The position numbers and the translations under genes were made by a program. A stretch of 64,000 nt of DNA, taken from positions 39,084 to 103,083 of the IMG/VR virus record IMGVR_UViG_3300032177_000002. The stretch is one strand, 5' to 3'. This document shows, in pieces, positions 124 through 54,330 of this stretch. This stretch comes from a virus. The notes beneath the pieces were generated by a model. The model was given only the letters and a program-made list of their open reading frames with translations. It searched no databases and had not been told where the DNA came from. Numbering within the stretch: the stretch's first letter is position 1; every line of letters starts with the position of its first letter.

Positions 124-126
124 TAC

Positions 127-14984: not shown

Positions 14985-15011
14985 AATTCTGTGCCTCTAA
15001 CCAAACTACAG

Positions 15012-15167
15012 TTATTCTGGAACCTCATCAGTACCTGTGTCGTATACATAACCCCTATATATGTCATAACACGTTTGACACAAGTATTCCCCGGATCCGC
15101 TAGGGTAATCATAATACCCCATTGTTACATCTGGTATATCATTGCCACATACACTACACTTCATCAT
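15012..15167 (-). CDS. 51-aa zinc-ribbon protein
   Basis: Two adjacent ATGs at 15167 and 15164 follow GGAG at six bases and overlap the stop of the gene before (TAATGATG). The product starts MMKCSVCGNDIP and carries CxxC at residues 4-7 and CQTC at about 30-33, a compact four-cysteine zinc ribbon, and ends TGTDEVPE. Good SD and coupling argue it is real. The role is unknown; a small metal-binding protein among virion genes is unusual. Confidence 0.65.
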   Translation of the reverse strand: MMKCSVCGNDIPDVTMGYYDYPSGSGEYLCQTCYDIYRGYVYDTGTDEVPE

Positions 15168-16087
15168 TATGTTCTCCGTACCCAGTAAGTAATTATTTTA
15201 TCTATCCCTTTTGATGAAGGAGCAATAGTCGAATTAAAATTAGAAGTCTTATCACATAACAGCATCAAATGAGCGGGTGTTAAAGTCGGGTACATACACC
15301 TATAATAATAATCAACACCACCAATAGTAAGCATACATTCATCATTGCTAACCTCTATACCCTGCTGTCTACTACAAAGCACATAAGGAATACCTAAAGG
15401 ATCCTCAAACGATCCTAGTATTGCTGCAGGATTAGTGACATCTGTACCAGTAATACCACCTCTAAAAAAATATAACTTCGACAATCTAGCCTTGCTATCG
15501 AATCCCCATACCCCCAATCCACCAGACTGCAACCCAATAAAGTATGCCAACGCATCCGTAGCGTAAATAAGCCTTGCATTAACCATACGTACAACACCTG
15601 CAGGCATCAGGTCCAACCCCACCAACCTATTAACGCCATCACATCCCTTAGTCACACAAAAGAATATCGGGAACGTTGAACATCCAGAAATTGCTGAGTC
15701 CGGTTTTACATTTCCAAAAATACAATGGCTATCAACCCATCCATCAAATGTAAAATCCCTAGCTGTGCAGTCTTCTGATCTGTTATCCCAATAAACTGGA
15801 TTACCCTGTCCAGTCCAACCCAATCCCATACCAGTATGTGTAACAAGATCATAAGATGCCCTAACTGCCGGTTCAATTATAGTATACAAGTACCCTGTAG
15901 CACTTATATCACTATAAATCCTAATTGCGCCAAGTTGCGCAATTCTGGCCATACATACATTTACAGAGTCTGCAGGCTTAATCCAATTGTATCCAGTTTC
16001 GCATCTAGTCCATCCATTCGTGATTGCTGTTGACGCTAATGTCGCGCTAAACGCGGATCCAGCACAAGTAAATGTCACGAACGCCAT
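15167..16087 (-). CDS. virion-region protein, Cys-rich, unknown
   Basis: 306 aa with AGGAG six bases before ATG. Many aromatic residues and at least 14 cysteines spread along the chain, without CxxC pairs, which suggests a beta-rich protein. Contains GLGWTGQGNPVYWDNRSED and GGLGVWGFDSKARLSK. Resembles phage receptor-binding or baseplate-associated proteins in style, but no family is recognised. Confidence 0.55.
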   Translation of the reverse strand: MAFVTFTCAGSAFSATLASTAITNGWTRCETGYNWIKPADSVNVCMARIAQLGAIRIYSDISATGYLYTIIEPAVRASYDLVTHTGMGLGWTGQGNPVYWDNRSEDCTARDFTFDGWVDSHCIFGNVKPDSAISGCSTFPIFFCVTKGCDGVNRLVGLDLMPAGVVRMVNARLIYATDALAYFIGLQSGGLGVWGFDSKARLSKLYFFRGGITGTDVTNPAAILGSFEDPLGIPYVLCSRQQGIEVSNDECMLTIGGVDYYYRCMYPTLTPAHLMLLCDKTSNFNSTIAPSSKGIDKIITYWVRRT

Positions 16088-34299: not shown

Positions 34300-35019
34300 T
34301 TACCCTGAATTCCTGGCCAACCGAAAACCGAGGTTGAAGCTGCGGTCCGCCGGGGCGACGTGGTCGCGGTAAGTCGCACGCAGGTTCCTCGCATTGCTGA
34401 GCCAGGACCCGCCGCGACACGCCTTATACACTCTTGATACGGGGCCTATAGGGTCTATTACCTTCCCTTCTGGGTAATCTCCATACCAATCCGAGCACCA
34501 CTCCCACACGTTCCCATGCATTTGGTATAAACCCCATCCGTTTGGCGGAAACTTCTTAACCTCTACCAGTTCTATTCCACCATAATTAGCTTGCTCTTTT
34601 GATATCACATCCCCAAATGAATACGCGGTCGTAGTTCCTGCTCTGCAGGCATATTCCCACTCGGCTTCTGTAGGGAGCCTCAATCCCATTCCTGCCCTCT
34701 TCAAAAACTCCTTGCAGTCCTCAAATGACACGCTGTCCACGGGCTTATCATTCCCTTCAAATCGTGATGGGTTATTACCTATCACCGCCTCCCATAATTC
34801 TTGTGTGCAAACGGTATCCGCTAACCAAAACGCTTTCGTGAGCTCTACTTCGTGCTGTATTTCGTCCTGGTAACGTCCTGGTTCCTGGCTTGGAGAGCCC
34901 ATCGTAAACGTTCCTGCAGGAATAAAACGGAATCGTTGGACCACCCCATTAAAAGCTAGTTCCGTCCATATCCCATACTCGTCCGTCCCCACGTTTGGCC
35001 ATTCTACGGTTGCTTTCAT
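34300..35019 (-). CDS. FGE-sulfatase/C-type-lectin-fold variable protein 1
   Basis: 239 aa, AGGAG before ATG. FGE-sulfatase (SUMF1-like) features in order: RFIPAGTFTMGSP, ELTKAFWLADTVCTQ, LPTEAEWEYACRAG, NGWGLYQMHGNVWEWCSDWY and CRGGSW near residue 201. After that the C-terminal 33 residues differ from its paralog only at positions typical of a diversity-generating retroelement target. This fold is the commonest DGR display scaffold. Likely a surface-displayed ligand-binding protein rather than an enzyme. Confidence 0.8.
   Translation of the reverse strand: MKATVEWPNVGTDEYGIWTELAFNGVVQRFRFIPAGTFTMGSPSQEPGRYQDEIQHEVELTKAFWLADTVCTQELWEAVIGNNPSRFEGNDKPVDSVSFEDCKEFLKRAGMGLRLPTEAEWEYACRAGTTTAYSFGDVISKEQANYGGIELVEVKKFPPNGWGLYQMHGNVWEWCSDWYGDYPEGKVIDPIGPVSRVYKACRGGSWLSNARNLRATYRDHVAPADRSFNLGFRLARNSG
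34333..34401 (-). other. candidate DGR variable region (VR1)
   Basis: Codons 207-229 of the gene. Compared with the paralog, all eleven differing codons carry substitutions mostly at first and second base with constant third C or T, e.g. CTC/GGC, AGC/GAC, AAT/TAT, CAC/AGC, TTC/AAC. Constant codons between them are identical at every base. This is the pattern left by adenine-specific mutagenesis of AAC/AAT codons in a template. Confidence 0.7.
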
Positions 35020-35332: not shown

Positions 35333-35980
35333 TTATACCGGAATTCCCATCCAAACACTACCTAAACTAGAACTATCCCTCATAATACCTATCTTAGAGC
35401 TCCCCACCATGGTCTCTATCTTAGAATTATCCCACATAATCCTTATCTCAGAATTCTCCTCCATAATCCCTATACAAGAACTCCCATACATGGTCCACAC
35501 TGTAGAATTCCATTCTATAGTCCCTATACTCGAATTCCTTCTCATAACCTTTACGATGGAGTTCCCTCGTAGAAATGTTATCTTAGAATTTCCTAGCATA
35601 TATTGAATTCTACAATTCTTAACCTCTCCAATTTCAGCTCCATCAAGAAGGATGAAACATCCATTTTGAAGGGTTTCTCGTTTATCTTGGACAAACATAT
35701 CGGAGATAATAGTCCATAATTTATTTGTTACTATTTCCTCGTTGAACCAGCTCGGAATAGAAGATTCATCAACATCCAATCTCCAATTATTTATATCGTT
35801 TAAATTCTTATTAAAGTCTGTAGGAGTAAACTCGACTCTACAAAATTTTTCTAAATAGAACCCCTTCTCATCGTCTGTTAAATTACATTTTTTTAGTAGT
35901 TCCTCATGTCGATCAGGATATCCGGGATCCCAAATAACATCTAAATTTTTTAACACAATAGCACTCAGAAAGTTACACAT
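35333..35980 (-). CDS. protein with C-terminal nonapeptide-repeat solenoid
   Basis: 215 aa from ATG 35980, directly behind GGAGAAGAAGA of the variable gene 2. The N-terminal ~110 residues are helical (EELLKKCNLTDDEKGFYLEK). From about residue 130 nine 9-residue units of the form NSxIxxMxx follow in a row (NSKITFLRG, NSSIGTIEW, NSEIRIMWD, SSKIGIMRD and others), ending GIPV. Such regular repeats form a beta-solenoid. Similar repeats occur in other phage proteins of unknown role. Confidence 0.65.
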   Translation of the reverse strand: MCNFLSAIVLKNLDVIWDPGYPDRHEELLKKCNLTDDEKGFYLEKFCRVEFTPTDFNKNLNDINNWRLDVDESSIPSWFNEEIVTNKLWTIISDMFVQDKRETLQNGCFILLDGAEIGEVKNCRIQYMLGNSKITFLRGNSIVKVMRRNSSIGTIEWNSTVWTMYGSSCIGIMEENSEIRIMWDNSKIETMVGSSKIGIMRDSSSLGSVWMGIPV

Positions 35981-35993
35981 TCTTCTTCTCCCG

Positions 35994-36713
35994 TTACCCT
36001 GAATTCCTGGCCAACCGAAAACCGAGGTAGTTGTAGCGGGCCGCCGGGGCGAAGCTGTCGCGGTACGCCGCACGCAGGATCCTCGCATAGTCGCCCCAGG
36101 ACCCGCCGCGACACACCTTATACACTCTTGATACGGGGCCTATAGGGTCTATTACCTTCCCTTCTGGGTAATCTCCATACCAATCCGAGCACCACTCCCA
36201 CACGTTCCCATGCATTTGGTATAACCCCCATCCGTTTGGCTGGAACGCCTTAACTTCCACCGTTTTGGTTCCACCGTAGTTAGCTTGCTTTTTGGATATC
36301 GTACCCCCAAACGAATAAGCGGGTTGAGTCCCTGCTCGACAAGCGTATTCCCACTCCGCTTCCGTAGGGAGCCTCAACCCCGTCCCTACCGTTTCTAAAA
36401 ATACTTGGCAATCTTCAAACGCTACACTGTCTACAGGTTTATTTTTTCCTATAAATCGTGATGGATTATTCCCCATCACTGCTTCCCATAGTTCTTGGGT
36501 GCATACGGTATCCGCTAACCAAAACGCCTTCGTTAGTTCCACTTCGTGCTGTATTTCGTCTTCATAATAGCCCGGCTCATCTTTTGGCGAACCCATCAAA
36601 AATGTTCCTGCAGGGATACAACGGAACCGTTGGATCACCCTATTTATAGCTATATCTATCCAATTCCCGTATCTATCCGTCCCTGTGTTCAACCCTTTTA
36701 TGATCTCTTTCAT
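35994..36713 (-). CDS. FGE-sulfatase/C-type-lectin-fold variable protein 2
   Basis: 239 aa, GGGGA before ATG. Near-identical in layout to the protein at 34300-35019: FRCIPAGTFLMGSP, LPTEAEWEYACRAG, HGNVWEWCSDWY, CRGGSW, then a variable C-terminus. DNA identity is very high from about 36100 to 36240 and across the 49-bp block after the variable codons. It is the first gene of the leftward run and has a promoter-like sequence upstream. Confidence 0.8.
   Translation of the reverse strand: MKEIIKGLNTGTDRYGNWIDIAINRVIQRFRCIPAGTFLMGSPKDEPGYYEDEIQHEVELTKAFWLADTVCTQELWEAVMGNNPSRFIGKNKPVDSVAFEDCQVFLETVGTGLRLPTEAEWEYACRAGTQPAYSFGGTISKKQANYGGTKTVEVKAFQPNGWGLYQMHGNVWEWCSDWYGDYPEGKVIDPIGPVSRVYKVCRGGSWGDYARILRAAYRDSFAPAARYNYLGFRLARNSG
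36027..36095 (-). other. candidate DGR variable region (VR2)
   Basis: Equivalent codons 207-229 of the second gene; it differs from VR1 at eleven codons and is identical at all others. The block from 35978 to 36026, including the stop codon and the next gene's SD, is identical to 34284-34332 and is where the initiation-of-mutagenic-homology element would be expected. Confidence 0.7.
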
Positions 36714-36731
36714 GTTTCATCCCCTATTTTT

Positions 36732-36760
36732 ATTATTCATCATTTTTATGACTTGTGCAA
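36732..36760 (-). promoter_or_regulatory. promoter-like sequence upstream of variable gene 2
   Basis: -35 TTGCAC (36755-36760), 17-bp spacer, -10 AATAAT (36732-36737), 19 bp before ATG 36713. Confidence 0.45.
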
Positions 36761-36790
36761 TGTAAGTAATTTGCCTTTTTTCACCTTTTT

Positions 36791-36813
36791 CAAGATCCAA
36801 ACTCTGGATCTTG
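36791..36813. promoter_or_regulatory. inverted repeat CAAGATCCA-n5-TGGATCTTG, possible operator
   Basis: Nine-base perfect arms around AACTC, 30 bp beyond the -35 of the promoter for variable gene 2. A matching element with CAAGTTCCA arms lies at 43498-43520. No T-run follows on either strand, so it is not an ordinary terminator. Confidence 0.45.
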
Positions 36814-37304
36814 GTCTACCTTTCTACCCGGAATCATTCATATACTTACATCCACCTACTCCACGACCCTCCAGAATACATCGTTTTTATACCTTTTAAA
36901 AGAAGACAAAAACACCCCCTGCAAGAAAAAACAAACATCCTCCTCTTAGGCTACCAATTCATCGTCTTGCTACCACCAGCAAAACGATGGTATCAATGCT
37001 TCCTGCAAATCTAGAAAGACAACCTACTAACACCCTTTAAATACGCCATATATAGCTAAGGTAAAACTTTTTACCTTATTTCTCCTGCAGGAATAAAAAG
37101 ACTCCTAATAACTCCCTGTAAAAGGAAACTAACTAGAAATAAGCCCAACTAAGAAAGGAAACTAATCAAACCCTACCCGTATGAGTAAGCTGAATCTGTA
37201 TTGGGAGATCTAATCCTTATGGGTATGGGCTTATTCCTGTCCGTATCCGTAGGTCGAATCTGTATCCATAGAGAGCTGTAAATGGAACCCAATGCCCTAT
37301 TCCC

Positions 37305-37523
37305 GATAGTTATTGGTAGTTATAATTTCTACTCTGTACCAAAAATTAGATACGTATCCTGAGGGACTTGTAAATGGAACTCCATATCCTAATCCTAATA
37401 GTTATAGGTAGTTATAATTTCTACTCTGTACGAAAAATTACAAACGTATCCGTATAGAGCGGTGGTCAATGTAAGTTCAGTTAGTTATAATTTCTACTCT
37501 GTACGAAAAATTACAAACGTATC
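37305..37523 (+). repeat. three direct repeats carrying AATTTCTACTCTGTAC
   Basis: Copies of GTTATAATTTCTACTCTGTA start at 37319, 37411 and 37484, each followed by a nearly constant AAAAATTA and ACGTATCC; copies 2 and 3 are identical over 42 bp. Copies 1 and 2 share further upstream sequence (TGTAAATGGAAC, TAGTTAT(T/A)GGTAG). Distances between copies are 92 and 73 bp. The TAATTT/AAATTA arms allow a small hairpin. Confidence 0.75.
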
Positions 37524-37766
37524 CGGAGGGACCTAACCCCGACCCGCATCCCCCTCGGCTTCAGTATTTTCCTACCCCCCACCCCGTCTACGCATACGTA
37601 CCCCACTTTACCCCATTCCACTGCATTCCACTTCACTCTACCCCACTCTATCTACGCATGTGTACCCCACTTTACTTCACTCTACTTTACTTGTTTAGGG
37701 TACGAAGTATATACGGTAGATGTGGCGTAACTACACTGACGGGGGGGTGTGATCAATGACGGTATA

Positions 37767-37825
37767 CCACTAGATATGGGGGTGGTGGGATAATTATCCC
37801 ACTAGATATGGGGGTGGTGGGATAA
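37767..37825 (+). repeat. two 27-bp G-rich direct repeats with central palindrome
   Basis: CCACTAGATATGGGGGTGG followed by TGGGATAA occurs at 37767-37793 and 37799-37825; between and overlapping them GGGATAATTATCCC is a 14-bp palindrome. G-runs could form quadruplexes. Confidence 0.75.
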
Positions 37826-37940
37826 AAGTCCCACTACCTACCCAAAAATGTTCGTTAGGGTTACGTAGCACGATTTCTAGATTCGTATGCACTATTCTTA
37901 CTTATCCCTTATCCTCTTTATATTCCTGCAATGTAATAAT

Positions 37941-38092
37941 GTTCGGGTTAGTGTTCGTCCTCGGGTTAGGGTTCGGGTTCGTCCTCGGGTTAGGGTTCGT
38001 TCTCGGGTTAGGGTTCGTTCTCGGGTTAGGGTTCGGATTAGTTCTAGGGTTAGGGCTAGGGTTCGGGGTAGGGTTCGGGTTCGTGTTCGGGG
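37941..38092 (+). repeat. telomere-like G-rich hexamer repeats
   Basis: About 150 bp built almost entirely from hexamers of type GTTCGG, GTTAGG, GTTCGT and (C/T)CTCGG; an 18-bp unit GTTCGTCCTCGGGTTAGG and its variant with TTCTCGG recur four times. Runs of GGG come every six bases on the plus strand, so quadruplex formation is possible. A plus-strand open frame through it encodes only alternating Arg-Val and is an artefact. Confidence 0.85.
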
Positions 38093-38182
38093 TAGTAGAT
38101 ATACGGTATTAAAGTTCTTTTGTATACACCTTTAGACTTTTCTCCATATTGTAGTAAATGTACAAAAACCTATAATAGCTTT

Positions 38183-38202
38183 GAATTGAATTGAATTGAA
38201 TT
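38183..38202 (+). repeat. four tandem GAATT pentamers
   Basis: GAATT repeated four times without mismatch, just downstream of the G-rich repeats. Confidence 0.8.
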
Positions 38203-38451
38203 AAGGGTTCGGTCTCCCGTCTCTTGTTCTTGTGAGTTTTCTTTTAGTTTTATTTTATGTTTGGTAGGTTGAGCCAGGATCGGCTTTTGTTTTTGATTGA
38301 TTTGAACATCTTTTTATTTTGTTGGTGGTTGTTGTTTAGTGTTGGTTATTCGGTACTCGTTTGAAGATCAGGCTGGCGATATTGAATCGTGTATCTGTTC
38401 CTGTGCATATTTGAATAGTTGGCGTGGGATTGTTTTTTTGAGGGGCAAGTA

Positions 38452-38474
38452 GGTTACTCCTCGTTCGAGTAACC
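38452..38474. other. perfect hairpin GGTTACTC-n7-GAGTAACC
   Basis: Eight-base arms around CTCGTTC. No T-run on either strand. It lies at the left edge of the hairpin-rich island. Confidence 0.6.
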
Positions 38475-38537
38475 TGTCGGTATCTGGTCCAGCGACAGCA
38501 GGTAATCGGTTAGGATCATCTGCATCACACTAGCGAG

Positions 38538-38561
38538 GATGAGGTCAGCGCTGACCTCATC
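38538..38561. promoter_or_regulatory. 24-bp perfect palindrome
   Basis: GATGAGGTCAGC is followed directly by its reverse complement GCTGACCTCATC, 17 bp behind the stop of the gene at 38578. It lacks a T-run and so is more likely a protein-binding site or recombination site than a terminator. Confidence 0.6.
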
Positions 38562-38577
38562 TTTCCTGATCTCGTTA

Positions 38578-38799
38578 TCATTCATTCTTGAACTCCACAT
38601 ATTCTCGCTCTACCCCCTCTTCAATATGCTCCAGCGCCTGCTCGTACAAAGTTTGGACTAGTGCCTCTAGCTCGTCTCGCTCTCGTTGCGAGCGAGCTTT
38701 AGCGATCACATATTTCGCGCGCGATCGCGCGAAATAGGGATCGTTACGATTGTCAAAGAAACACGCGAACACATGATCCCTACGCTCCTGCTTAGTCAT
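38578..38799 (-). CDS. small helical protein, ARSxxExDEL family, cassette unit 1
   Basis: 73 aa, AAAGGAG before ATG. KARSQRERDELEALVQTLYE is the family core; ends YVEFKNE. Paralog of 39365-39583 and more distantly 30136-30336. The gene contains strong hairpins: a ten-base arm pair (38712-38721 with 38726-38735) around CGAT and an eleven-base pair with one bulge at 38669-38698. Function unknown. Confidence 0.6.
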   Translation of the reverse strand: MTKQERRDHVFACFFDNRNDPYFARSRAKYVIAKARSQRERDELEALVQTLYEQALEHIEEGVEREYVEFKNE

Positions 38800-39001
38800 T
38801 TTTTTTCTCCTTTACTGGCTGGAATACTACTTCATTATCGATATGACCTAGCACCGAGTATCGTCCTAGGTACCACATTCTAAGCTGGCCCCATGACCCG
38901 ACGGAGTCAGCTATTTTCAGGTAGCGTAGTTGGTGCGTTCTGAGGTAGCAGCACGTGGCTACCTTTTTTACCTCATAAGCTAGTGACATTCTTCTATGCA
39001 T
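38792..39001 (-). CDS. small protein, cassette unit 1, intact copy
   Basis: 69 aa, GGAGG six bases before ATG; overlaps the next gene. MHRRMSLAYEVKKVATCCYL ... LRYLKIAD ... GQLRMWYLGRYSVLGH. The paralog at 39651-39785 is closely related but stops early at an in-frame TGA. An internal hairpin AGGTAGC-n8-GCTACCT at 38943-38964 has constant arms and a different loop in the paralog. Confidence 0.6.
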   Translation of the reverse strand: MHRRMSLAYEVKKVATCCYLRTHQLRYLKIADSVGSWGQLRMWYLGRYSVLGHIDNEVVFQPVKEKKND

Positions 39002-39076
39002 CGGTATCCTCCACCAAGGCTTATTTGCCCTTGCTGCGTGGTATTGTTTGTTGTAGATGTTTGGATCTACCCTCAG

Positions 39077-39256
39077 TCATGACTTTCCTCCATTTTCTTG
39101 CGCGAGCGCCATTGAAACGGCGCTCGAGGTCTGCTGCAACATCATTTTTTTGAGCTTCTCGGACCGAATACGGTCCGAGGCTTTCCGCTCGACTATGATC
39201 GAGCGGAAATTTATCTGATTCGTTGCTTGTTTTTGTTGGTTTTGTGTTTGGTTCAT
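39077..39256 (-). CDS. 59-aa basic protein from leaderless promoter, cassette unit 1
   Basis: Reads MNQTQNQQKQATNQINFRSI and continues IVERKASDRIRSEKLKKMML, ending ENGGKS. Paralog of 40620-40802. No SD; ATG 39256 is six bases from the -10 of the repeated 55-bp promoter. A longer frame 39021-39281 on the same strand is only a shadow of it. Three perfect hairpins lie inside: 39103-39126, 39158-39179 and 39182-39209. Helical and basic, possibly nucleic-acid binding. Confidence 0.6.
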   Translation of the reverse strand: MNQTQNQQKQATNQINFRSIIVERKASDRIRSEKLKKMMLQQTSSAVSMALAQENGGKS

Positions 39257-39311
39257 GATCAGATAGTAGCTTGACTAGCATTTAAAATCGGTGCGCTACC
39301 TTACAATTATG
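39257..39311 (-). promoter_or_regulatory. repeated promoter block, copy A
   Basis: Read on the minus strand: CATAATTGTAAGGTAGCGC, then ACCGATTTTAAATG, then GCTACTATCTGATC abutting ATG. Identical to copy B over the full block and partly conserved in copies C and D. -10-like TACTAT lies at 39263-39268. Predicts a leaderless transcript. Confidence 0.65.
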
Positions 39312-39364
39312 ATGATTTATTTTTATTTATTTTTTGGTAGGGATTGAAAATGAGAGAGGGTAGG

Positions 39365-39583
39365 TTACTGGTCCATCGAGCGCACGTATTCCAGCTCTAT
39401 CCCCTCTTCTATCCTCGCTAGTGCTTTCTCGTAAAGGCGCTGGACGAGCGTATCCAACTCATCCTTTTCCTTTTGCGAGCGAGCTCGCTTGAAAACGAAA
39501 TAAGAGCGAAATCTAGCATCGACAGGATCCAGCGCCTCGAATAGCCCGAACACCTTATTCCTACGGTCCTGTTTCGTTTTCAT
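39365..39583 (-). CDS. small helical protein, ARSxxExDEL family, cassette unit 2
   Basis: 72 aa, AAGGAG seven bases before ATG. RARSQKEKDELDTLVQRLYE is the family core. Contains the palindrome AGCGAGCTCGCT (39478-39489) and a long-range ten-base pairing AGGCGCTGGA (39435) with TCCAGCGCCT (39528). Function unknown. Confidence 0.6.
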   Translation of the reverse strand: MKTKQDRRNKVFGLFEALDPVDARFRSYFVFKRARSQKEKDELDTLVQRLYEKALARIEEGIELEYVRSMDQ

Positions 39584-39650
39584 TTTTTGTCTCCTTCACT
39601 GACTGGAATACTACTTCATTTTCAGCGTGACTCAACACCGAGTAATTACC

Positions 39651-39785
39651 TCAGTACCACGTTCTCAGCTGTCCACAACTACTAATTTCATCAGCTATTT
39701 TAAGATAACGAATATCACCACTTTCCAGGTAGCACACCGTCGCTACCTTTTTTATTTCATCACTAAGCATCATCCTCCTATACAT
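39651..39785 (-). CDS. truncated cassette paralog with in-frame TGA
   Basis: 44 aa from ATG 39785 (GGAGG upstream). MYRRMMLSDEIKKVATVCYL ... GQLRTWY then TGA. In the intact copy the same place reads WYLGRYSVLGH, and here, after the TGA, the frame continues GNYSVLSHAENEVVFQSVKE as far as TAG 39561-39563. So this is a gene truncated by one codon, or a readthrough gene. TGA is used as normal stop elsewhere in the window, which favours truncation. Confidence 0.55.
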   Translation of the reverse strand: MYRRMMLSDEIKKVATVCYLESGDIRYLKIADEISSCGQLRTWY

Positions 39786-40623
39786 CGCTATCCTCCTCCA
39801 TACAATCCACCACATAATTATAGTTAAGTATGATCTCACTAAACGCCATAAATGTCCTTAAACTTAACTTTGATACTTTATCCTTTATTTTTTGTTGATC
39901 GAGGGATAACCCCTCAATTTTCTTATCATCTTGATATAATTCATATTTTTTATCTTTAAGCCTCAGCTCCACATTACTATGTAAGTCCACATTCCCACAC
40001 ATATTACCTTTTAGGAGTGTCTCGGTGCACTCCTCGCACATCTCATACCCCCCCTCCGCTATGTCGCTATTGTAATGCATAGGATCATCATCCTCGCAAC
40101 CAACACACAACCCATTATGTATGCAAGACGGACACATAGGATCCAGCATGAATACACCCACGCCTCCATTCCCTTTATATCCCGTGAACTCTGGTAAGTC
40201 TTCGTTGCTATAAGCAACGTCACAAATAGGACAACGCCATGTAAGAGATATCCCCTGATCGTGGGCGCTCTTTACACCTTGTACCCAATAGTGCTCATCA
40301 ATACCCAACGCGTCGTTTATCGGTGCATCGCCTACTAGCGTGCACTCGATATCGCTGATCTTGTGCTGGATTGATCCAGCGTCCAATAGCTGGATTAACC
40401 TGGCAGGGCCCATAGGTGACTCTAGACCACATAGCATCCCACTAAACTTGCCAGTGACATACAATGGGCGTATTGGTGTTACCTTATCGACGGGATCCAC
40501 GTATAAAATATTAGGTTCATAGTAACACCCTGCATAGGGCGCGTTTACCTGAAAAGTAAGGTAAAATCTTACCTTACCTTGATAAAACTTGGTGATACTT
40601 TCACTGGTGTCACTATCTATCAC
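39778..40623 (-). CDS. zinc-ribbon protein in the island
   Basis: 281 aa; start GTG 40623 overlaps the preceding TGA (GTGA) with GGAGG at six bases. Middle region has four CxxC pairs: CPIC, CPSC, CVGC and CEEC (residues ~133-197), a double zinc ribbon. It also carries a long basic/acidic C-terminal tail (KDKKYELYQDDKKIEGLS). It is present only in unit 2, between the two duplicated genes. Function unknown. Confidence 0.55.
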   Translation of the reverse strand: MIDSDTSESITKFYQGKVRFYLTFQVNAPYAGCYYEPNILYVDPVDKVTPIRPLYVTGKFSGMLCGLESPMGPARLIQLLDAGSIQHKISDIECTLVGDAPINDALGIDEHYWVQGVKSAHDQGISLTWRCPICDVAYSNEDLPEFTGYKGNGGVGVFMLDPMCPSCIHNGLCVGCEDDDPMHYNSDIAEGGYEMCEECTETLLKGNMCGNVDLHSNVELRLKDKKYELYQDDKKIEGLSLDQQKIKDKVSKLSLRTFMAFSEIILNYNYVVDCMEEDSDV

Positions 40624-40802
40624 GATTGTCCTCCATTTTTTTCACTGGCGAGCGCCATTGATATAGCGTCCTCTGTCTGAGACAACATCATTTTCTTCAA
40701 CTTCTCGGATCTAACTCGATCCGTGGCTTTACGCTCGACTATGATCGAGCGGAAATTTATCTGATTCGTTTCTTGTTTTTGTTGGTTTTGTGTTTGGTTC
40801 AT
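40620..40802 (-). CDS. 60-aa basic protein from leaderless promoter, cassette unit 2
   Basis: MNQTQNQQKQETNQINFRSI, then IVERKATDRVRSEKLKKMML; paralog of 39077-39256. No SD; ATG abuts promoter block B. One internal hairpin keeps seven of nine base pairs seen in the paralog, with a C-G pair changed to T-A on both arms. Confidence 0.6.
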   Translation of the reverse strand: MNQTQNQQKQETNQINFRSIIVERKATDRVRSEKLKKMMLSQTEDAISMALASEKNGGQS

Positions 40803-40857
40803 GATCAGATAGTAGCTTGACTAGCATTTAAAATCGGTGCGCTACCTTACAATTATG
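40803..40857 (-). promoter_or_regulatory. repeated promoter block, copy B
   Basis: Identical to copy A from CATAATTGTAAGG to CTATCTGATC, abutting ATG 40802. Upstream it has AAAAATAATCATC. Confidence 0.65.
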
Positions 40858-40872
40858 ATGATTATTTTTATC

Positions 40873-40988
40873 TCAATGTCGATTTACATCTACCCACAGG
40901 CGGTATGGCCGATGACATCGAGCTCATCTTACAGGTAGGATACCGCGTTAAACCGCGTACAAGGCGGTTTAAGCTAGGTGGACATTGA
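40873..40988. ncRNA. structured element with three-way-junction fold
   Basis: Complementary arms nest into one fold: TCAATGT (40873) with ACATTGA (40982); CTACC (40890) with GGTGG (40977); GCGGTAT (40900) with ATACCGC (40940), which encloses GATGA/TCATC; and TTAAACCGC (40948) with GCGGTTTAA (40964). It lies in a 227-bp gap, upstream of promoter B on the minus strand. It could be a riboswitch-like or small RNA, or a DNA cruciform site. Strand unknown. Confidence 0.5.
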
Positions 40989-41029
40989 ATGTGGGGGGAT
41001 TTATGAGGTAGTAAGTTGAAGTCGGCTTA

Positions 41030-41302
41030 CTAGGCGTTAGGTGCCGTACTGGCTCCCTCCAAGCCTAGTCGACCACCTAGGCCTACCTGATCCGCCTGCA
41101 ATTGAGCCCACACCAATGGGCCACGGTCCTCGAGCCCTAATGACTCGAGGTGATTGAGTGCGACAGCCAACGTCTTGGCCACCCGCCACAGATGACGGCG
41201 CGCGCCAGCTGCCTTCAAAACAAACTCCCGCCCCACTTCAGATAAGCTGCTAAGTCTTTCCGATAACTGTGCTTTGGTTTCGACAGTTTTAATTTCGTAC
41301 AT
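41030..41302 (-). CDS. island protein, unknown, hairpin-rich coding sequence
   Basis: 90 aa, AGGAG before ATG. MYEIKTVETKAQLSERLSSL and onwards helical, basic in the middle (GARRHLWRVAKTLAVALNHL). Hairpins in the coding DNA: GCCCA-n6-TGGGC (41106-41121), CCTCGAG-n9-CTCGAGG (41128-41150), GCCAA-n4-TTGGC (41166-41179) and palindrome GGCGCGCGCC (41197-41206). Function unknown. Confidence 0.55.
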   Translation of the reverse strand: MYEIKTVETKAQLSERLSSLSEVGREFVLKAAGARRHLWRVAKTLAVALNHLESLGLEDRGPLVWAQLQADQVGLGGRLGLEGASTAPNA

Positions 41303-41350
41303 TGTGTTCTCCTGTTTGTGTGGGCCTAATGTAGGCCCCTGTGTGTTTGG

Positions 41351-41566
41351 TTACTCGAGCTCGATCTCCTCGAGCTCTAACGCTTGATGCATATCAAGCT
41401 GTAACGCGTCTGTTACAGCCTGAAGGGGACGTAGGTGCCCCTCAGTGGATGTCGGCTTAAGTACCGACATTGCTTGGCGTATCGTTAGCCCGACGCCTAC
41501 CGACATATAGGCGTCGAACATGCATTTTACAACTACAATCTTTTTGTTGTATCTATAAGCCCTCAT
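41351..41566 (-). CDS. island protein, unknown, six consecutive coding hairpins
   Basis: 71 aa from ATG 41566 (GGAGG four bases upstream decides the start). MRAYRYNKKIVVVKCMFDAY ... helical C-terminus ending ALELEEIELE. Within 160 nt the coding DNA has six perfect inverted repeats at 41357-41377, 41382-41399, 41398-41419, 41424-41442, 41449-41470 and 41491-41516, with arms of 5-9 bases and loops of 4-9. Function unknown. Confidence 0.6.
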   Translation of the reverse strand: MRAYRYNKKIVVVKCMFDAYMSVGVGLTIRQAMSVLKPTSTEGHLRPLQAVTDALQLDMHQALELEEIELE

Positions 41567-41567
41567 G

Positions 41568-41924
41568 CTACCTCCACTCTGTACGCGGTAAGCGTATGAA
41601 GTGAAAGGTAGCATTGAGGTAAGGAGTGGCCGAAGATATTACATCATCAGAGGGAAGCCGATCCGGCAAGTCTGCTTGACTTAGGGTAAGATAGTCAGCT
41701 TGGTTTGCTTCTAGGAGTCTCTGCTTAAACTCCTCTAAGCTCATACCCTGCAGCAGGCCACAGGCGTTGCCGTGTTGCCACAAATGGGAAATAAAAACTT
41801 TATCTAAGCCAAAGTGACCGGTAGGCGCTTGGGCGGCCACCTTCATCACGGTCTGAGCAAAGGTCTCTAGAGATACAGTCTTGCTTGTCTGCATTCTCGC
41901 CGCTATTTCTTTTATAGTTGCCAT
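41568..41924 (-). CDS. island protein from leaderless promoter
   Basis: 118 aa, no SD, ATG abuts promoter block C. MATIKEIAARMQTSKTVSLE resembles the start of HTH-like proteins, but the rest (GHFGLDKVFISHLWQHG ...) is not recognised. Ends one base before the next ATG. Contains GCCG-n3-CGGC and AGGAGT/ACTCCT inverted repeats. Confidence 0.55.
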   Translation of the reverse strand: MATIKEIAARMQTSKTVSLETFAQTVMKVAAQAPTGHFGLDKVFISHLWQHGNACGLLQGMSLEEFKQRLLEANQADYLTLSQADLPDRLPSDDVISSATPYLNATFHFIRLPRTEWR

Positions 41925-41979
41925 GATCAGATAGTAGCACCGTCAAATATTAAAATCCGTGGGGTAGCTTACAATTATG
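41925..41979 (-). promoter_or_regulatory. repeated promoter block, copy C
   Basis: CATAATTGTAAGCTACCCC, ACGGATTTTAA and GCTACTATCTGATC abutting ATG. The middle differs from A/B; the two ends are conserved. Shares with copy D the upstream stretch CAATGTGTGCAAAAAATAAA. Confidence 0.6.
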
Positions 41980-42060
41980 TCACTTTTTTTTTATTTATTT
42001 TTTGCACACATTGAGCCCTATGCAAGTAGGTGTGATCGATTTACGGGTTCTAATCACAAT

Positions 42061-42588
42061 TCATTTCGACTGCTTAGCAGGTACCAACTCCCCTGTCGCA
42101 ACACTGTACACAGGGTACGGAGCTTCCACATCTTCGAACCAATCGTGCCCGAAACAATACGCCTTATTACACTCATTTGGCTTGTCCAATGGATTCATAA
42201 GATAACACACGCCAGGAGCACGTGGTGAACATAAATGTGCATAGGTGTAATATGGACTCCTCATTACGTATATATCTCCTCTTTCACCACACTCCGCAAA
42301 GTACTCGTTATCTTCGATGTAATACCTAAGAGCCTCGGCATTCTCATCCATCTCGATGTCAAATATCTCTCCACATTCACACTCTACTTCACTATCTATC
42401 TGACCATAGTGTACCTTTCCACATTTACATTCCGTCTCACTCTCATCCCCATACCAAGCCTCACTCCTATCAGCCCATGCCTGCAATACCTCACGTTGTT
42501 GGATAACACCGTATCGAATACCAGTTTGTGGGTTCGTATAAGCTAACCGCAAAAAATCACTCCAATCGATTCCTATATGACTAGTCAT
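42061..42588 (-). CDS. Cys-rich acidic protein, unknown
   Basis: 175 aa from ATG 42588, chosen because AAGGAG lies seven bases upstream; longer frames have no SD. CKCGKVHYGQ, CECGEIF and later HLCSPRAPGVCYL and CNKAYCFGHDW give a zinc-ribbon-like Cys set. Acidic, aromatic-rich. Transcribed from promoter block D through a ~60-nt leader, unlike the leaderless genes. Confidence 0.55.
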   Translation of the reverse strand: MTSHIGIDWSDFLRLAYTNPQTGIRYGVIQQREVLQAWADRSEAWYGDESETECKCGKVHYGQIDSEVECECGEIFDIEMDENAEALRYYIEDNEYFAECGERGDIYVMRSPYYTYAHLCSPRAPGVCYLMNPLDKPNECNKAYCFGHDWFEDVEAPYPVYSVATGELVPAKQSK

Positions 42589-42647
42589 TCTGTTTCTCCT
42601 TATTTCATCGGTACTCATCTTGAGGGCCCGTTCTGTTTTTTGCTTCT

Positions 42648-42702
42648 GATCAGATAATAGCAAGGTTAAAAAATTAAATCGGTGGGGTAGCTTACAATTA
42701 TG
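42648..42702 (-). promoter_or_regulatory. repeated promoter block, copy D
   Basis: CATAATTGTAAGCTACCCC, ACCGATTTAA and GCTATTATCTGATC, here followed by a ~60-nt leader with an SD instead of an immediate ATG. Confidence 0.6.
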
Positions 42703-43127
42703 TCACTTTTTTTTTATTTATTTTTTGCACACATTGCAATAGTATAGAAACCGGAACATCATAAAATGAGTGGACCCACATCCAAAAACTGTAAGTATTA
42801 CAGCAACATGTAAGTATAAATTATATATTAGGTTGTCTTGTGGAAACGTAACCTACAGGAGGAAGCATGATCTGATATAAGAAATAACATACATATAGGT
42901 TTATAGAATACGCGTAATCTATAAGATTATCGATAGGTTACGGTGCTACTACGCCCATATACGCTATGGTTGCATGCATGTGTACGCGTATAATGTACGT
43001 GCGCGGATGTGCGATGTACCACGGATAGGGTTACGTGTAGTATACGTACCACACCTCCTACATTGCCTACAACTCGTACATGTAGCATGAGGTGTGTGGT
43101 CCTGGTGTGGGCTACATCCCCAAAGAT

Positions 43128-43193
43128 ATAGGGCCCTTTTTTCAGCCGATTTTCTGGTAGGCATAGGGCCCTTTTTTCAGCCGATTTCCTGGT
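43128..43193. repeat. tandem 31-bp repeat with GGGCCC and T-run
   Basis: ATAGGGCCCTTTTTTCAGCC then GATTTTCTGGT occurs at 43128-43158 and, with one T/C change, at 43163-43193, separated by four bases. The second copy ends just before the stop of the 93-aa gene. Confidence 0.75.
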
Positions 43194-43194
43194 T

Positions 43195-43476
43195 CTAATC
43201 CCATTTACGATTCCACGAAGCTTTAACCACAAGATGAAACCCTCCACCAACATCCTGAAGCACAGTTCCAGGAACAAACACTAGCATCACGTCTCCTAGT
43301 ACACTAGAATCAAGAATCTCCTGATGCTGCACTATTCTAACAACGCAGCCTACTCCTGGTATTTCCATAGCTTGCGTAAGCATAAGAGGCTCTTCGCAAA
43401 CCATACGCCACGGCGAAAGCGTTACTGTTTTATTGCTAGATTTGTTAACTTCGGTAACATCATGCATTTCGGCCAT
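43195..43476 (-). CDS. hypothetical protein
   Basis: 93 aa. MAEMHDVTEVNKSSNKTVTL ... small beta domain (IPGVGCVVRIVQHQEIL, VMLVFVPGTVLQDVGG). The 5' region holds the second CAAGxTCCA palindrome. No family recognised. Confidence 0.55.
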   Translation of the reverse strand: MAEMHDVTEVNKSSNKTVTLSPWRMVCEEPLMLTQAMEIPGVGCVVRIVQHQEILDSSVLGDVMLVFVPGTVLQDVGGGFHLVVKASWNRKWD

Positions 43477-43497
43477 TTACCTATGCTCTCCGAGTTT

Positions 43498-43520
43498 CAA
43501 GTTCCAGAGTCTGGAACTTG
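43498..43520. promoter_or_regulatory. 23-bp near-perfect palindrome, CAAGTTCCAGA arms
   Basis: Eleven-base arms CAAGTTCCAGA and TCTGGAACTTG around a single G. It lies in the gap between the dUTPase stop and the next ATG. The related element at 36791-36813 has CAAGATCCA arms with matching changes on both sides, so symmetry is conserved rather than exact sequence. A dimeric repressor site is the simplest reading. Confidence 0.5.
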
Positions 43521-47323: not shown

Positions 47324-48025
47324 CTACAAACTAACCATGTGCATTCCTTTGCCAAACTCTACGTTGTTTGTTATAAGATCCCGTGTGGTCAAAGCTTCTG
47401 GCTCCGATTTTGTAACACGAATCATTACCCTTCTCATCCCTTCACTTGCGGTTTCTACTGATTTTTTTCCACTCTTAAAGGCCATTTCTTCATTTAACAA
47501 CGCAGCTATTAGTACAGCATCGGCCACATCCTCTGCCGATTCACCTAAGTCATTAAGATCCAAGTCGAACAATACAGACGCTGCGTCAACCATTACGTCC
47601 TTCCCGGCAGCACCTGATCCTGTCCATGCTAATTTCACAGTTGCAGGACTATAAATTCGGAAAGGTATACCCTGTTTGAATAAATAATTCTTAACAATTC
47701 CACTAAGTTCATATAAACTGCTTGCACCTCTACTGTTTTTTGCGTACGCTGGCCCTTCCATAGATACCGTCAAATTACTATAATCATGCATCAACCCCAT
47801 CATGTTCCACATAATCCAATAACTTATTGCATTCATTCTGTGTTGCCTACACGATTCTGAATTGTTCTTTAATTTGTAGTAACACAACACATTCTTATTT
47901 TTATTATAAAGGTACTTTTTGTCCGTCCAACCGAAGTAATTTCTCAATCCACCGTTTACCAGTATCGCCATACCAGTACCACGCAACGATAAGTCAAGAC
48001 CTACTATAACTGCATCCTCTCTCAT
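47324..48025 (-). CDS. RuvC-like Holliday junction resolvase
   Basis: 233 aa, GGGGG before ATG. RNase H-fold acidic residues: GLDLSLRGTGMAI, MEGPAYAKNS, and SAEDVADAVLIAALL in the usual order (D...E...D..D). Related phage resolvases (Bacillus and Lactococcus types) look like this. It probably cuts branched replication intermediates before packaging. Confidence 0.75.
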   Translation of the reverse strand: MREDAVIVGLDLSLRGTGMAILVNGGLRNYFGWTDKKYLYNKNKNVLCYYKLKNNSESCRQHRMNAISYWIMWNMMGLMHDYSNLTVSMEGPAYAKNSRGASSLYELSGIVKNYLFKQGIPFRIYSPATVKLAWTGSGAAGKDVMVDAASVLFDLDLNDLGESAEDVADAVLIAALLNEEMAFKSGKKSVETASEGMRRVMIRVTKSEPEALTTRDLITNNVEFGKGMHMVSL

Positions 48026-50247
48026 TTTATAGCCCCCAACCTAGCCCTGGCTTGTTTAGCGAACTTCTCATCTATTTCGCAACCAACGCATTCTAGTTCT
48101 AGTTCCGCGCATGCTACGAGCGTCGTACCCGTCCCAGCAAACGGGTCAAAAATACGGCATTTAGACACAGTATGCCTATCCAGCAACTTTTTCATGAGCC
48201 AAACTGGTTTCTGGGCAGGATGATCCAGCCTCTCGTTACCTCCGCATACGGGACCTTCAAAGTAATTGTGCGCCTCCTTAGTACCAGCATTTACCCATGG
48301 CTTAAATGCATATTTATCTCCCTTTGTCGCCCAAAATAATGCTTCACAACTTGGCATGTAAGCCGCTCGATGCACAGGAGCTGGATTGCTATTAAGAACA
48401 AACATCCCATTATCAACTGCGAACAAATGAGAGTCGCTATCCACTGATACATGCCACACGCACTTCCCAGGAACAACTTTTACGCTTTTTACCTTTACTG
48501 AAGAAAATCCCTCTCTACTACACATATTACTCCTGTTAAATTTGACTACGTAGCATTTCGTATTTTCATCTATAGTAACAATTACTCCTTTTACACCAGC
48601 AACCTTCAATAACCAATATATATCGTACAGCAACTCTTTATTACTAATGCTTAATTCTAATTCTTCTTTTCCGCCTTCTCTTATTGCTACTAAATGATCA
48701 CACACCTCATCTAGTATTCCTCGTATAAATTCATATCCTCTAAAATATACGTCAGGTTCTAGCATCATGTTAATATTGGTTTCTAAATCGAATGCATAAC
48801 TAACAGCGCTACTACGTATTATGTCTAGCATATCTTTTTTGTTGCTATGCATACCTGCTATTAAATGCGTACCTACTGATCTACCTTCAGTATAGGTACC
48901 TTCTTGCATTAAATTAGTGCCAATACTAATTTTATCTGCAACTAGAATACTATCATTAGATGTGATATCCATTGCTTCTTTTAAATGAAGCGTATTATCT
49001 GCATTCATAACAATAGGCAACTTATGATCCTGCGTGACTACTACCGAATTACCATCCTCTAAAGTAATTTGTATAAGATTTGATCTGTACCCTACATTTT
49101 CAGTACCGACAACATTAGCTAAACACGTGATGCCTTTGTTAATACTTACTACTTTATCTCCTCTCCTTAATTCCTTTGGTGTAAACCTATGAATACCATA
49201 ATCATCAACAACTGGTATGCGGGTATCTTCACTTATACATTTATGCCACACCATAGATCCCCGGTAAACCAAGTCAGACTTCTCACACATAACCTTGCAT
49301 GCACCAAGCATTTCCAATGATGTAAATGCCACTATCGATCCACCTTCGTCCAATAATTGCGCGACATCCGAAATCCACACAGTATCAAGCTTGTCCCAAT
49401 CAACTATGCCATCATCATTTATGCAAGACCGATCATTATGCGCAATTGTAGATCTTTCCAACCCGTATGGAGGGTCAGTTAGTACAAGGTCGAAAAGTTC
49501 TCCATTCTCTTTCATTATACTAATTATTTCTTTATAATCAGTATCATAAAGTACGCATGACACTGAAACGTCAAACCCGCTTCCGTTCTCTTTAGGCTCT
49601 TCTTTTTTACGTTTCTCTGCCCTATTTTCCGCTACCTCTTCTAGCTTAGCCAACTTTTTTTGCTTCTTAATTTTTGACAGAGCTTTCGATGCTTCAACAT
49701 TCCTCTTCTTTACAGTATTCTCATTGGATATCTTATCTTTATCTTCTTCTCCTAACGAAGCTATACTAATAAGATCATAAATGTATGATTTACTAACGCC
49801 TAATACTTTTGAGATATCCCCAACAAAATTTTCAGCACCTGTATCCGTCATATTTCCATGATGCCCTCCCCATTTCACCTCCGGGTGCTGTTTTTCGTAA
49901 ACCTGTTTTAACCTCTTTAAACCCTCTCCAATTTCTAATTTATCAAAATCCTTCCTTTTTATGTTCTCCTCTAACTGCAAAATAAGTGCGGTAGATTCAT
50001 CAGTATCAGGTATAACAACTGCATTAACATTTATCCCCAATTTCCTACACGCCCTAACACGCCTCAACCCAGCCACTATTATTGGTTCCCCTTTTTGGTT
50101 TAACCTGACCAGCACAGGCTGTAACTGCCCTATTCGTTGTATAGATTCCACTAACACATCAATGTCCCCATCTTCCTTCCTTACCCGCCATCCTACTTTT
50201 ATTTTCTTTGGATCAAATACTGTTTGTTTCCCGCTTTGTGTTTCCAT
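48022..50247 (-). CDS. ParB-domain/DNA methyltransferase fusion interrupted by an intein
   Basis: 741 aa, AAGGA before ATG. Residues ~8-120: ParB/Srx-like N-domain (VGWRVRKEDGDIDVLVESIQ, IIVAGLRRVRACRKLG). Residues ~225-336 and 620-741: adenine/cytosine-N4 methyltransferase with TDPPYG (motif IV) before DPFAGTGTT (motif I), the beta-class order. Residues 337-619 are an intein. Such ParB-MTase fusions are common in phages and can protect DNA. After splicing, WHK joins SNPAPVHR. Confidence 0.85.
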   Translation of the reverse strand: METQSGKQTVFDPKKIKVGWRVRKEDGDIDVLVESIQRIGQLQPVLVRLNQKGEPIIVAGLRRVRACRKLGINVNAVVIPDTDESTALILQLEENIKRKDFDKLEIGEGLKRLKQVYEKQHPEVKWGGHHGNMTDTGAENFVGDISKVLGVSKSYIYDLISIASLGEEDKDKISNENTVKKRNVEASKALSKIKKQKKLAKLEEVAENRAEKRKKEEPKENGSGFDVSVSCVLYDTDYKEIISIMKENGELFDLVLTDPPYGLERSTIAHNDRSCINDDGIVDWDKLDTVWISDVAQLLDEGGSIVAFTSLEMLGACKVMCEKSDLVYRGSMVWHKCISEDTRIPVVDDYGIHRFTPKELRRGDKVVSINKGITCLANVVGTENVGYRSNLIQITLEDGNSVVVTQDHKLPIVMNADNTLHLKEAMDITSNDSILVADKISIGTNLMQEGTYTEGRSVGTHLIAGMHSNKKDMLDIIRSSAVSYAFDLETNINMMLEPDVYFRGYEFIRGILDEVCDHLVAIREGGKEELELSISNKELLYDIYWLLKVAGVKGVIVTIDENTKCYVVKFNRSNMCSREGFSSVKVKSVKVVPGKCVWHVSVDSDSHLFAVDNGMFVLNSNPAPVHRAAYMPSCEALFWATKGDKYAFKPWVNAGTKEAHNYFEGPVCGGNERLDHPAQKPVWLMKKLLDRHTVSKCRIFDPFAGTGTTLVACAELELECVGCEIDEKFAKQARARLGAIK
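48391..49239 (-). mobile_element. intein (~283 aa) in ParB-methyltransferase
   Basis: Starts with Cys (CISEDTRIPVVDDYG) and ends MFVLN before a Ser extein residue. Splicing blocks: A block near the start, B-like VVTQDHKLPIV, F-like region WHVSVDSDSHLFAVD. Penultimate residue is Leu instead of the usual His. A degenerate LAGLIDADG-like region (EPDVYFRGYEFIRGILDE) suggests a decayed or minimal homing endonuclease. Confidence 0.85.
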
Positions 50248-53240: not shown

Positions 53241-54330
53241 GTTCTACCTCTTTCTGCATGTCTTTAAACATCTGCAACAAAACGCTACGTTCTTCTCTGC
53301 TTTTTATTTTTGATTTGATAAATGCTGCGGCTTCCTGCATCGGATCACTTGTTTTTCTTTCTTGTTTGTATTTCTTATCTTCCTTAGATACCTTTATTCT
53401 TGGCATTACAAATACGTGCTTTGCTCCTTTTTCGTAAAGACGACCTTCTACTTCCTTCCAGTCAACAATAGTGGATTCGTCAACAAACGACTTTACTCTT
53501 ACTACCTTGTTAACAAGATCTTTTTTAGAAATAACGCATACTACATCAGAAGTTGTACACCCAACTCTACCAGAACCCCATTGCGTAACGTCAATCTCTA
53601 AAGTCAATAACTCTATAGCTTGTCTAGCCACAAATTTTGATTCAGCGTGATCACTATATCGGTCATGTAGCAGGAATCTCTTACAGTCGTTTTCCTCGTC
53701 AAACGTCATTCTCTCAGCAGATCCCACTATGACCACGTTAGAACCCACTTTCTGCGGCTTATGAATATGTCCTCCTATTACCACACAGGCATCATCAATC
53801 ACCCTGGATGGGACGTAGTGAGCCGCTGCTCTGTATGAATTACCTTCTTCCCCAACCTTCGAACCAATTACATTTAGATGCGTACAGACTGTATCCGTTT
53901 CACATACATGTATGTCCCTATCGTACGCATCCTGAGACTCGTATAACCCCGGTGAAGGAAACGGAAGCATTACTACACCCCTAGATAGCCTGAGTGGCCT
54001 ATCGACTACCCTGACCCGTTTAAACGGCGATACGCGTATACATTCTAAAGCAGATGGAACCTCTACCTTATTCGTAACATCGTGGTTACCTACCATGATA
54101 TACAACGGTATACCAGCTCTCTCGAACTCGTTACACCACTGTAGTACTAATTTTTCCTGCGCAATTGTAGGAGAACATTTGTCAAACAGATCACCAAGAT
54201 GAATTGCGTACCCTACTTTCATCCTTACGCACACATTGAAGAACTCGTACATTGCGCATCGTATACTTTGTGTTAAGTCGAACCCGTACAAAGACCTACC
54301 AATATGCGTGTCACCTATTACTGCTATCAT
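53215..54330 (-). CDS. SbcD/Mre11-like nuclease (T4 gp47-like)
   Basis: 371 aa. Metallophosphoesterase motifs in order: MIAVIGDTHIG, LGDLFDKCSP, VGNHD, THLNVIG and GGHIHKPQKVG. The C-terminal region has a basic helical tail. Partner of the SbcC-like ATPase for resecting DNA ends. Starts at the stop of RecA (TAATG). Separated from sbcC by the two small genes, which is unusual. Confidence 0.9.
   Translation of the reverse strand: MIAVIGDTHIGRSLYGFDLTQSIRCAMYEFFNVCVRMKVGYAIHLGDLFDKCSPTIAQEKLVLQWCNEFERAGIPLYIMVGNHDVTNKVEVPSALECIRVSPFKRVRVVDRPLRLSRGVVMLPFPSPGLYESQDAYDRDIHVCETDTVCTHLNVIGSKVGEEGNSYRAAAHYVPSRVIDDACVVIGGHIHKPQKVGSNVVIVGSAERMTFDEENDCKRFLLHDRYSDHAESKFVARQAIELLTLEIDVTQWGSGRVGCTTSDVVCVISKKDLVNKVVRVKSFVDESTIVDWKEVEGRLYEKGAKHVFVMPRIKVSKEDKKYKQERKTSDPMQEAAAFIKSKIKSREERSVLLQMFKDMQKEVEHEGTSKVY

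Follow-up and report, generated by a model that had tools for sequence, protein, structure and literature searches.

A local excess of perfect hairpins inside small orphan genes of a tailed phage, possibly formed by template switching

Perfect inverted repeats are rare in coding DNA because the codons of both arms become tied together. The nearest described system is found in the mitochondria of Nematomorpha, where translated genes carry mostly perfect inverted repeats that are gained and lost between relatives and whose arms change in concert, for which the authors raise template switching or repeat conversion and not function (PMC6649704). Template switching creates perfect RNA hairpins in one step and can mimic compensation (PMC8794818), it homogenises inverted repeats in yeast coding genes (PMC8604942), and quasipalindrome mutation is linked to transcription in yeast DNA (PMC3820800). 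Here we describe an island of 3.2 kb (positions 38400-41600) in a 64,000-nucleotide stretch of viral DNA, the window, which comprises bases 39084-103083 of the 103,083-base IMG/VR virus record IMGVR_UViG_3300032177_000002. The island consists of small orphan genes, all on the minus strand, and bears an extreme, local excess of perfect hairpins. A preliminary description made from the letters of the window knew of no described system with this architecture, which is not quite right in view of the coding repeats of Nematomorpha mitochondria (PMC6649704) and the homogenisation by template switching in yeast (PMC8604942).

The island resembles the Nematomorpha genes in that its repeats lie inside translated genes, are for the most part perfect and turn over. 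The mitochondrial repeats, however, have arms of up to 284 bp, some of their midpoints are common to species, and they are documented in four species (PMC6649704), whereas those of the island have arms of 6-11 bp and loops of 3-10, follow one another head to tail in the small orphan genes of one phage genome, and show no phase bias. Template-switch mutation as published shares with the island short spacers and may share with it the rewriting of one arm as a reverse complement, multi-base single events and the mimicry of compensation; the published cases are scattered single events, recovered by ancestral reconstruction or in reversion assays, whereas the island is a dense local cluster without a pedigree. 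The terminal redundancy of phage SPO1, a host-takeover module, is likewise a cluster of small orphan genes, and SPO1 is the second most hairpin-rich genome in our sample. Its hairpins are mostly intergenic, several then followed by T runs (in SPO1 1-16000, 24 intergenic against 1.7 expected and 9 coding against 5.9, no clear excess), while those of the island lie inside genes. Rickettsia palindromic elements are families of one inserted sequence of 100-150 bp that lie inside open reading frames (ORFs). They thus share with the island hairpin-forming DNA in ORFs, and they are mentioned in the Nematomorpha study (PMC6649704). In the island each stem is a different sequence, and the stems have no sequence motif, loop or spacing in common. 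Aligned paralogues show no insertions or deletions at the stems, and inserted palindromic elements of this type were rejected on these grounds.

Hairpin excess in coding and non-coding DNA

Counting as a hairpin any non-overlapping, perfect inverted repeat with arms of at least 7 and a loop of 3-10, we find 22 in the island, against 1.29 ± 1.09 (maximum 5) in 100 dinucleotide shuffles; with arms of at least 8 the count is 11 against 0.28, and with arms of at least 9 it is 8 against 0.03. The comparison with codon-shuffled sequence that the preliminary description had suggested, run as a set test over all island genes with protein and codon set kept, leaves the finding standing (17 hairpins observed, mean 2.3 and maximum 7 in 200 synonymous shuffles), as it does when the second copies of paralogues are left out (15 against 2.2). 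Taken singly, the genes at 39077 (p=0.002), 41351 (p=0.004), 41030 (p=0.014) and 38578 (p=0.03) are significant in synonymous shuffles, and those at 38792, 39365 and 41568 are not. The island ranks first in hairpin excess (p 2.7e-19) among 1084 segments of 3.2 kb from a total of 1.13 Mb of phage and bacterial DNA, which took in the record itself, 30 viral contigs with thyA and 3 with polA, three contigs that carry relatives of the neighbouring gene g7 (see below), SPO1, N4, T4 and bacterial loci; the best segment of any other genome, from SPO1, reaches p 1e-7. Outside the island, hairpin density in the 103-kb record is near background, so the earlier claim of a far denser packing here than in the rest of the window is borne out. 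All six hairpins claimed for 160 nt of the 41351 gene are where they had been placed, as are the three of the 39077 gene, with arms of 8, 9 and 11. Among the other genes that had been named, 38578, 38792 and 41030 do carry hairpins; the claim is weak for 39365, which has no perfect arm of at least 6, and for 41568, which has one. Four hairpins with arms of at least 7 in 39778-40623, and the intergenic hairpins, had been overlooked.

Enrichment is about equal in the two compartments, with 17 hairpins in 2494 nt of coding DNA against 0.92 expected (18-fold) and 5 in 707 nt of non-coding DNA against 0.26 (19-fold), and is therefore not a terminator effect. Intrinsic terminators of an early module were accordingly rejected by position, 17 of the 22 stems lying in coding DNA; inspection by eye revealed no U runs directly 3' of the stems on the mRNA strand. 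A scan of 36500-43500 against Rfam gave no match with E <= 1. An apparent bias towards even loop lengths (20/27) was also discarded, being no longer significant once stems were made non-overlapping (15/22). The features of the island and its boundary are as follows (arm lengths of stems in brackets).

38451..38475, intergenic hairpin with arms of 9 and a loop of 7
38538..38561, intergenic, a perfect palindrome of 24 nt that lies downstream of the 38578 gene
38578..38799, minus strand, g1, 73-residue orphan; stems 38676-38696 (7) and 38711-38736 (11); atypical codon usage
38792..39001, minus strand, g2, 69-residue orphan; AGGTAGC stem 38943-38964
39077..39256, minus strand, g3, 59-residue orphan; stems 39103-39126 (8), 39158-39179 (9) and 39182-39209 (11)
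39257..39310, minus strand, promoter-like block, copy 1; direct repeat found within the record only in the island region
39365..39583, minus strand, g1', 72-residue paralogue of g1 (55% amino acid identity), without a perfect stem of arm at least 6
39651..39785, minus strand, g2', paralogue of g2 interrupted by an in-frame TGA; AGGTAGC stem 39727-39748
39778..40623, minus strand, 281-residue cysteine-rich (zinc-ribbon-like) orphan between g3' and g2'; stems at 40013, 40203, 40374 and 40556
40620..40802, minus strand, g3', 60-residue paralogue of g3 (85% amino acid identity); stems 40706-40723 (6) and 40732-40751 (7; 10/11 pairs of the g3 stem)
40803..40856, minus strand, promoter-like block, copy 2; direct repeat
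40948..40972, intergenic hairpin with arms of 9 and a loop of 7
41030..41302, minus strand, g4, 90-residue orphan; stems 41063-41082 and 41128-41150, with a further stem, 41009-41032, spanning its stop codon
41322..41338, intergenic hairpin with arms of 7 and a loop of 3
41351..41566, minus strand, g5, 71-residue orphan; six consecutive hairpins in 41357-41516 (arm/loop): 41357-41377 (8/5), 41382-41399 (7/4), 41398-41419 (8/6), 41449-41470 (7/8), 41491-41516 (9/8) and a sixth, AGGGG...CCCCT, at about 41425; GGAGGT just 5' of the ATG
41568..41924, minus strand, g6, 118-residue protein; few hairpins, atypical codon usage
41925..41978, minus strand, promoter-like block, copy 3; direct repeat
42061..42603, minus strand, g7, 180-residue cysteine-containing protein behind promoter copy 4, without hairpin excess and with normal codon usage; island boundary
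42648..42701, minus strand, promoter-like block, copy 4; direct repeat

Stem turnover and strand symmetry

The comparison of stems covers one genome, with two paralogue pairs and one truncated copy, and this set yields one compensated pair and several broken pairs. The 11-bp stem of g3 is kept in g3' with one broken pair, and the 9-bp stem is 6 bp long there, with two uncompensated changes beside one compensated pair. The latter is the C-G to T-A change noticed earlier and confirmed here (GGAC/GTCC in 39077, GGAT/ATCC in 40620). Likewise confirmed is the AGGTAGC...GCTACCT stem of g2 and g2', whose arms are the same and whose loop has changed. Turnover is otherwise high, the stems at 38711 (11 bp) and 38676 (7 bp) of g1 having no counterpart in g1' and that at 39103 being halved in its paralogue. 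In this last, 8-bp stem (39103-39126) the right arm, GGCGCTCG, is the same in g3 and g3', whereas four of the eight sites of the left arm differ, all of which a single template switch from the unchanged arm would explain. It is the one clear case in a search for one-arm rewrites, which gave weaker cases in g1/g1'; non-complement controls matched only A/T runs. A 'ghost' stem of 10 bp, divided between g1 and g1' (average 0.2 in the shifted-alignment null for arms of at least 8), is only suggestive, because the same 10-mer has a third occurrence in g1'.

Selection acting on mRNA predicts more G.U than A.C pairs on the mRNA strand, an A.C pair there being a G.U pair on the opposite strand. We found no such enrichment: read on the mRNA strand, the mismatches just outside and just inside the stems comprise 11 G.U and 10 A.C. 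Among stems of at least 8 columns, those with a single internal wobble number 6 on the sense and 2 on the antisense strand, a difference that is not significant, and those with a C.T mismatch number 4. Folding z-scores for the sense and antisense strands are similar (-4.6 and -3.3 for g3, -3.4 and -3.8 for g5), and the coding stems are spread about equally over the three codon phases (6/8/7). The stems are thus independent of reading frame and strand, as is expected of template-switch repeats. At 7 columns perfect stems number 22 against 1.05 expected, and stems with one mismatch, 12 against 15, show no excess.

Genes of the island and their phage

The promoter-like block, TGATCAGATARTAGC...GTAGCTTACAATTATG in plus-strand view, has just four copies in the whole record (39257, 40803, 41925 and 42648). 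The copies head, in order, g3-g2-g1, g3'-(281-residue gene)-g2'-g1', g6-g5-g4, and g7. Operons one and two are paralogues of each other, and g6-g5-g4 is a third. Good Shine-Dalgarno sequences precede g2 and g5. Nonsynonymous divergence (dN) is below synonymous divergence (dS) between g3 and g3' (0.12 vs 0.54) and between g2 and g2' (0.27 vs 1.19), so the island genes encode real proteins or did so until recently; for g1 no dS value could be obtained. The TGA of g2' replaces a Leu codon of g2, and the frame is conserved for about 25 codons past it, so that g2' may be either a young pseudogene or a gene expressed by readthrough. Structure prediction gave a three-helix model for g1 (predicted local distance difference test, pLDDT, 72) without a significant fold match, and a poor model for g5.

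Codon usage was scored against the phage's own genes, in 450 fragments of 65 codons. Genes g1, g2, g3, g1', g3', g4, g5 and g6 score no higher than the 0.2% tail; the 281-residue gene is borderline at 7%, and usage is normal in g7 and g2'. CTC, CGC, GTC and CCC are about 6-10 times commoner in island genes than elsewhere, and several codons ending in C (NNC) are up 3-10 fold. GC content at third codon positions (GC3) is 0.48-0.61 against 0.36, mRNA GC skew is below that of the phage's other genes for most island genes, and along the DNA the skew is lost at the island, with no clear switch.

Searches of IMG/VR viral contigs, GTDB genomes, INPHARED phages and plasmids found no homologue of the hairpin genes, whether single proteins, paralogue alignments or the promoter block were used as queries; g2 gave only matches with E >= 0.1, to Vibrio phage rIIA. 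As far as Pfam, PHROGs, NCBIfam and PADLOC were scanned, the island proteins have no recognisable match, in agreement with the preliminary description, and the 281-residue cysteine-rich protein has no database match. Protein g6 weakly matches the C-terminus of Xaut_4854 (29%, E=6e-3), from a conjugative plasmid, near IS-type transposase genes. Relatives of g7, 43-44% identical, occur in three unrelated viral contigs, all without the island.

The record belongs to a tailed phage with sheath, terminase, portal, PolA, RecA, ThyA and DHFR-like genes, the names of which, other than DNA polymerase and terminase, were read off the sequence. No close relative was found, relatives of the DNA polymerase being 22-23% identical and the best of the terminase below 30%. 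The left end (record positions 2961-9819) carries carA, carB and a pyrF-like gene, a group interrupted by GC-rich DNA at about 7.4-8.8 kb; they may be auxiliary metabolic genes, host flank or a join. The carB product is 58-74% identical to those of Acidobacteria/Thermoanaerobaculales, a hint that the host is perhaps found there.

Several other features of the record lie outside the island. Non-coding DNA at 37170-38100 holds degenerate tandem repeats with units of 73-92 bp, together with a double unit of 32 bp and an array of GGGTTA/GGGTTC hexamers. Two paralogous formylglycine-generating-enzyme-like proteins are encoded at 34300-35019 and 35994-36713, with C-termini (GGSW...LR..YRD...R...GFRLA) that resemble variable proteins of diversity-generating retroelements. 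The record contains no reverse transcriptase, and such a retroelement was rejected as the source of the hairpins. Paralogous proteins with terminal arrays of a 9-residue repeat (MWENSKVEA type), from 27-bp minisatellites, are encoded at 35333-36088 and at virus-record positions 9838-10803 (minus strand). From their translations, a RecA-like protein (54330-56450), interrupted at its Walker A motif, and a ParB/methyltransferase-like protein (48022-50247) each appear to contain an intein.

How the hairpins may have arisen

We tentatively favour, at a little less than an even chance, the formation of the hairpins mainly by template switching (quasipalindrome formation) in a foreign, imported or fast-evolving early module. 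In favour of it are the like enrichment of coding and non-coding DNA, the even codon phases, the strand symmetry, the excess at 7 columns of perfect but not of one-mismatch stems, the turnover of stems with the one-arm difference at 39103, the atypical codon usage of the hairpin-rich genes and the published cases of template switching (PMC8794818, PMC8604942). The module would be a set of small orphan genes of a double-stranded DNA phage, arranged in promoter-headed operons of which one was duplicated. During DNA synthesis the polymerase would briefly take the opposite arm of an imperfect inverted repeat as its template, within or between strands, and in one step turn one arm into a perfect reverse complement of its partner. 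Purifying selection would then retain only events that the small proteins tolerate, and point mutation would later erode older stems. The process would have acted in the island genes or their donor and much less in the remaining phage. Small genes, orphan status and repeated promoter blocks suggest that the module is probably early or concerned with host takeover. The preliminary description had offered selection on structure or a quasipalindrome process; that pair of alternatives is partly supported, the symmetric features favouring the DNA-process half.

Several observations weigh against template switching. Nothing in it accounts for the confinement to 3 kb, since hairpins are not in excess in g7, which follows a copy of the same promoter block. 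Atypical codons and hairpins coincide inexactly, g1' and g6 having the former with few or none of the latter, so codon usage is more than a by-product of the stems. One-mismatch stems do exceed expectation at 8, 9 and 10 columns (11 vs 4.8, 6 vs 1.9 and 6 vs 0.4), which indicates stems at all stages: perfect, slightly decayed and lost. Single-wobble G.U stems lean, though not significantly, to the mRNA strand; the compensated C-G to T-A pair and the AGGTAGC stem, with its constant arms and changed loop, also fit selection on structure; and there is no relative available to polarise the arm changes. Transcription-associated quasipalindrome mutation, as in yeast (PMC3820800), was rejected as the whole cause, again on account of g7. 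A variant in which the island is a hypermutable set of early genes, where local template switching keeps writing hairpins as a non-retroelement source of multi-residue changes in host-interaction proteins and hairpin richness is a by-product, strikes us as improbable.

The main rival is selection for local mRNA structure, which would keep hairpins dense in the early mRNAs without fixing their sites, for stability against RNases of host or phage, tuned translation or evasion of RNA-targeting defence. That the excess outlasts synonymous shuffling (17 vs 2.3), that the sense strands of g3 and g5 fold well, and that one pair is compensated, the AGGTAGC arms are conserved and G.U leans slightly to the mRNA strand all agree with it. 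The strand asymmetry is not significant, however; roughly half of the paralogue comparisons show a stem lost or halved, untranslated stems 3' of genes are just as perfect, g6 and g7 lack the excess behind the same promoter block, and RNA structure selected in coding sequence is not usually so close to strict Watson-Crick pairing. We regard this explanation as possible if rather unlikely. A recent arrival of the genes, together with their hairpins, from a donor replicon rich throughout its genome in short perfect inverted repeats would be compatible with template switching in that donor, and the codon score far outside the phage range, the shifted NNC codons, GC skew and GC3, the repeat-rich flanks (36.7-38.4 kb and 42.9-43.2 kb) and the presence of relatives of the neighbouring g7 in unrelated phages are in its favour. 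It is nevertheless doubtful as an account of its own, because neither donor nor homologue appears in the searched collections, because the promoter block also heads the hairpin-free g7, which suggests a module integrated in the phage's own regulation, and because arms copied from G-rich mRNA would by themselves raise NNC codons. Judged by codon usage, the module either was imported or is evolving under a different regime, and the hairpins may have come along with it.

Perfect, strand-symmetric stems in coding and non-coding DNA, in a neighbourhood rich in repeats, could also point to a function of the DNA itself, with palindromes acting as binding, extrusion or anti-nuclease sites or as part of a replication origin. 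In N4-type phages, for instance, extruded hairpins serve as early promoters. Such a function is nonetheless highly improbable here: palindromic binding sites would be copies of one sequence, whereas these stems share no motif, loop or spacing, and beyond the loss of GC skew there is no clear skew switch at the island. Chance, composition or codon bias without any special process could draw on the sample as a whole, in which short perfect hairpins are 1.8 times as frequent as the composition model predicts, and on the terminase gene, which alone reaches p=0.005 in the synonymous shuffle. It is scarcely credible beside 22 hairpins against 1.3, 17 against 2.3 with protein and codon set kept, and first rank among 1084 segments; barring a misassembly of the record, these tests refute it.

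A string of hairpins this dense in translated phage genes shows the extent to which protein sequence can bend to the coupling of the two arms. If selection for mRNA structure is the cause, the island would represent an unusual, generically structured early transcript. If template switching is responsible, phage accessory genes could change several residues at once, and the same process would mimic the compensatory changes that are taken as proof of RNA structure.

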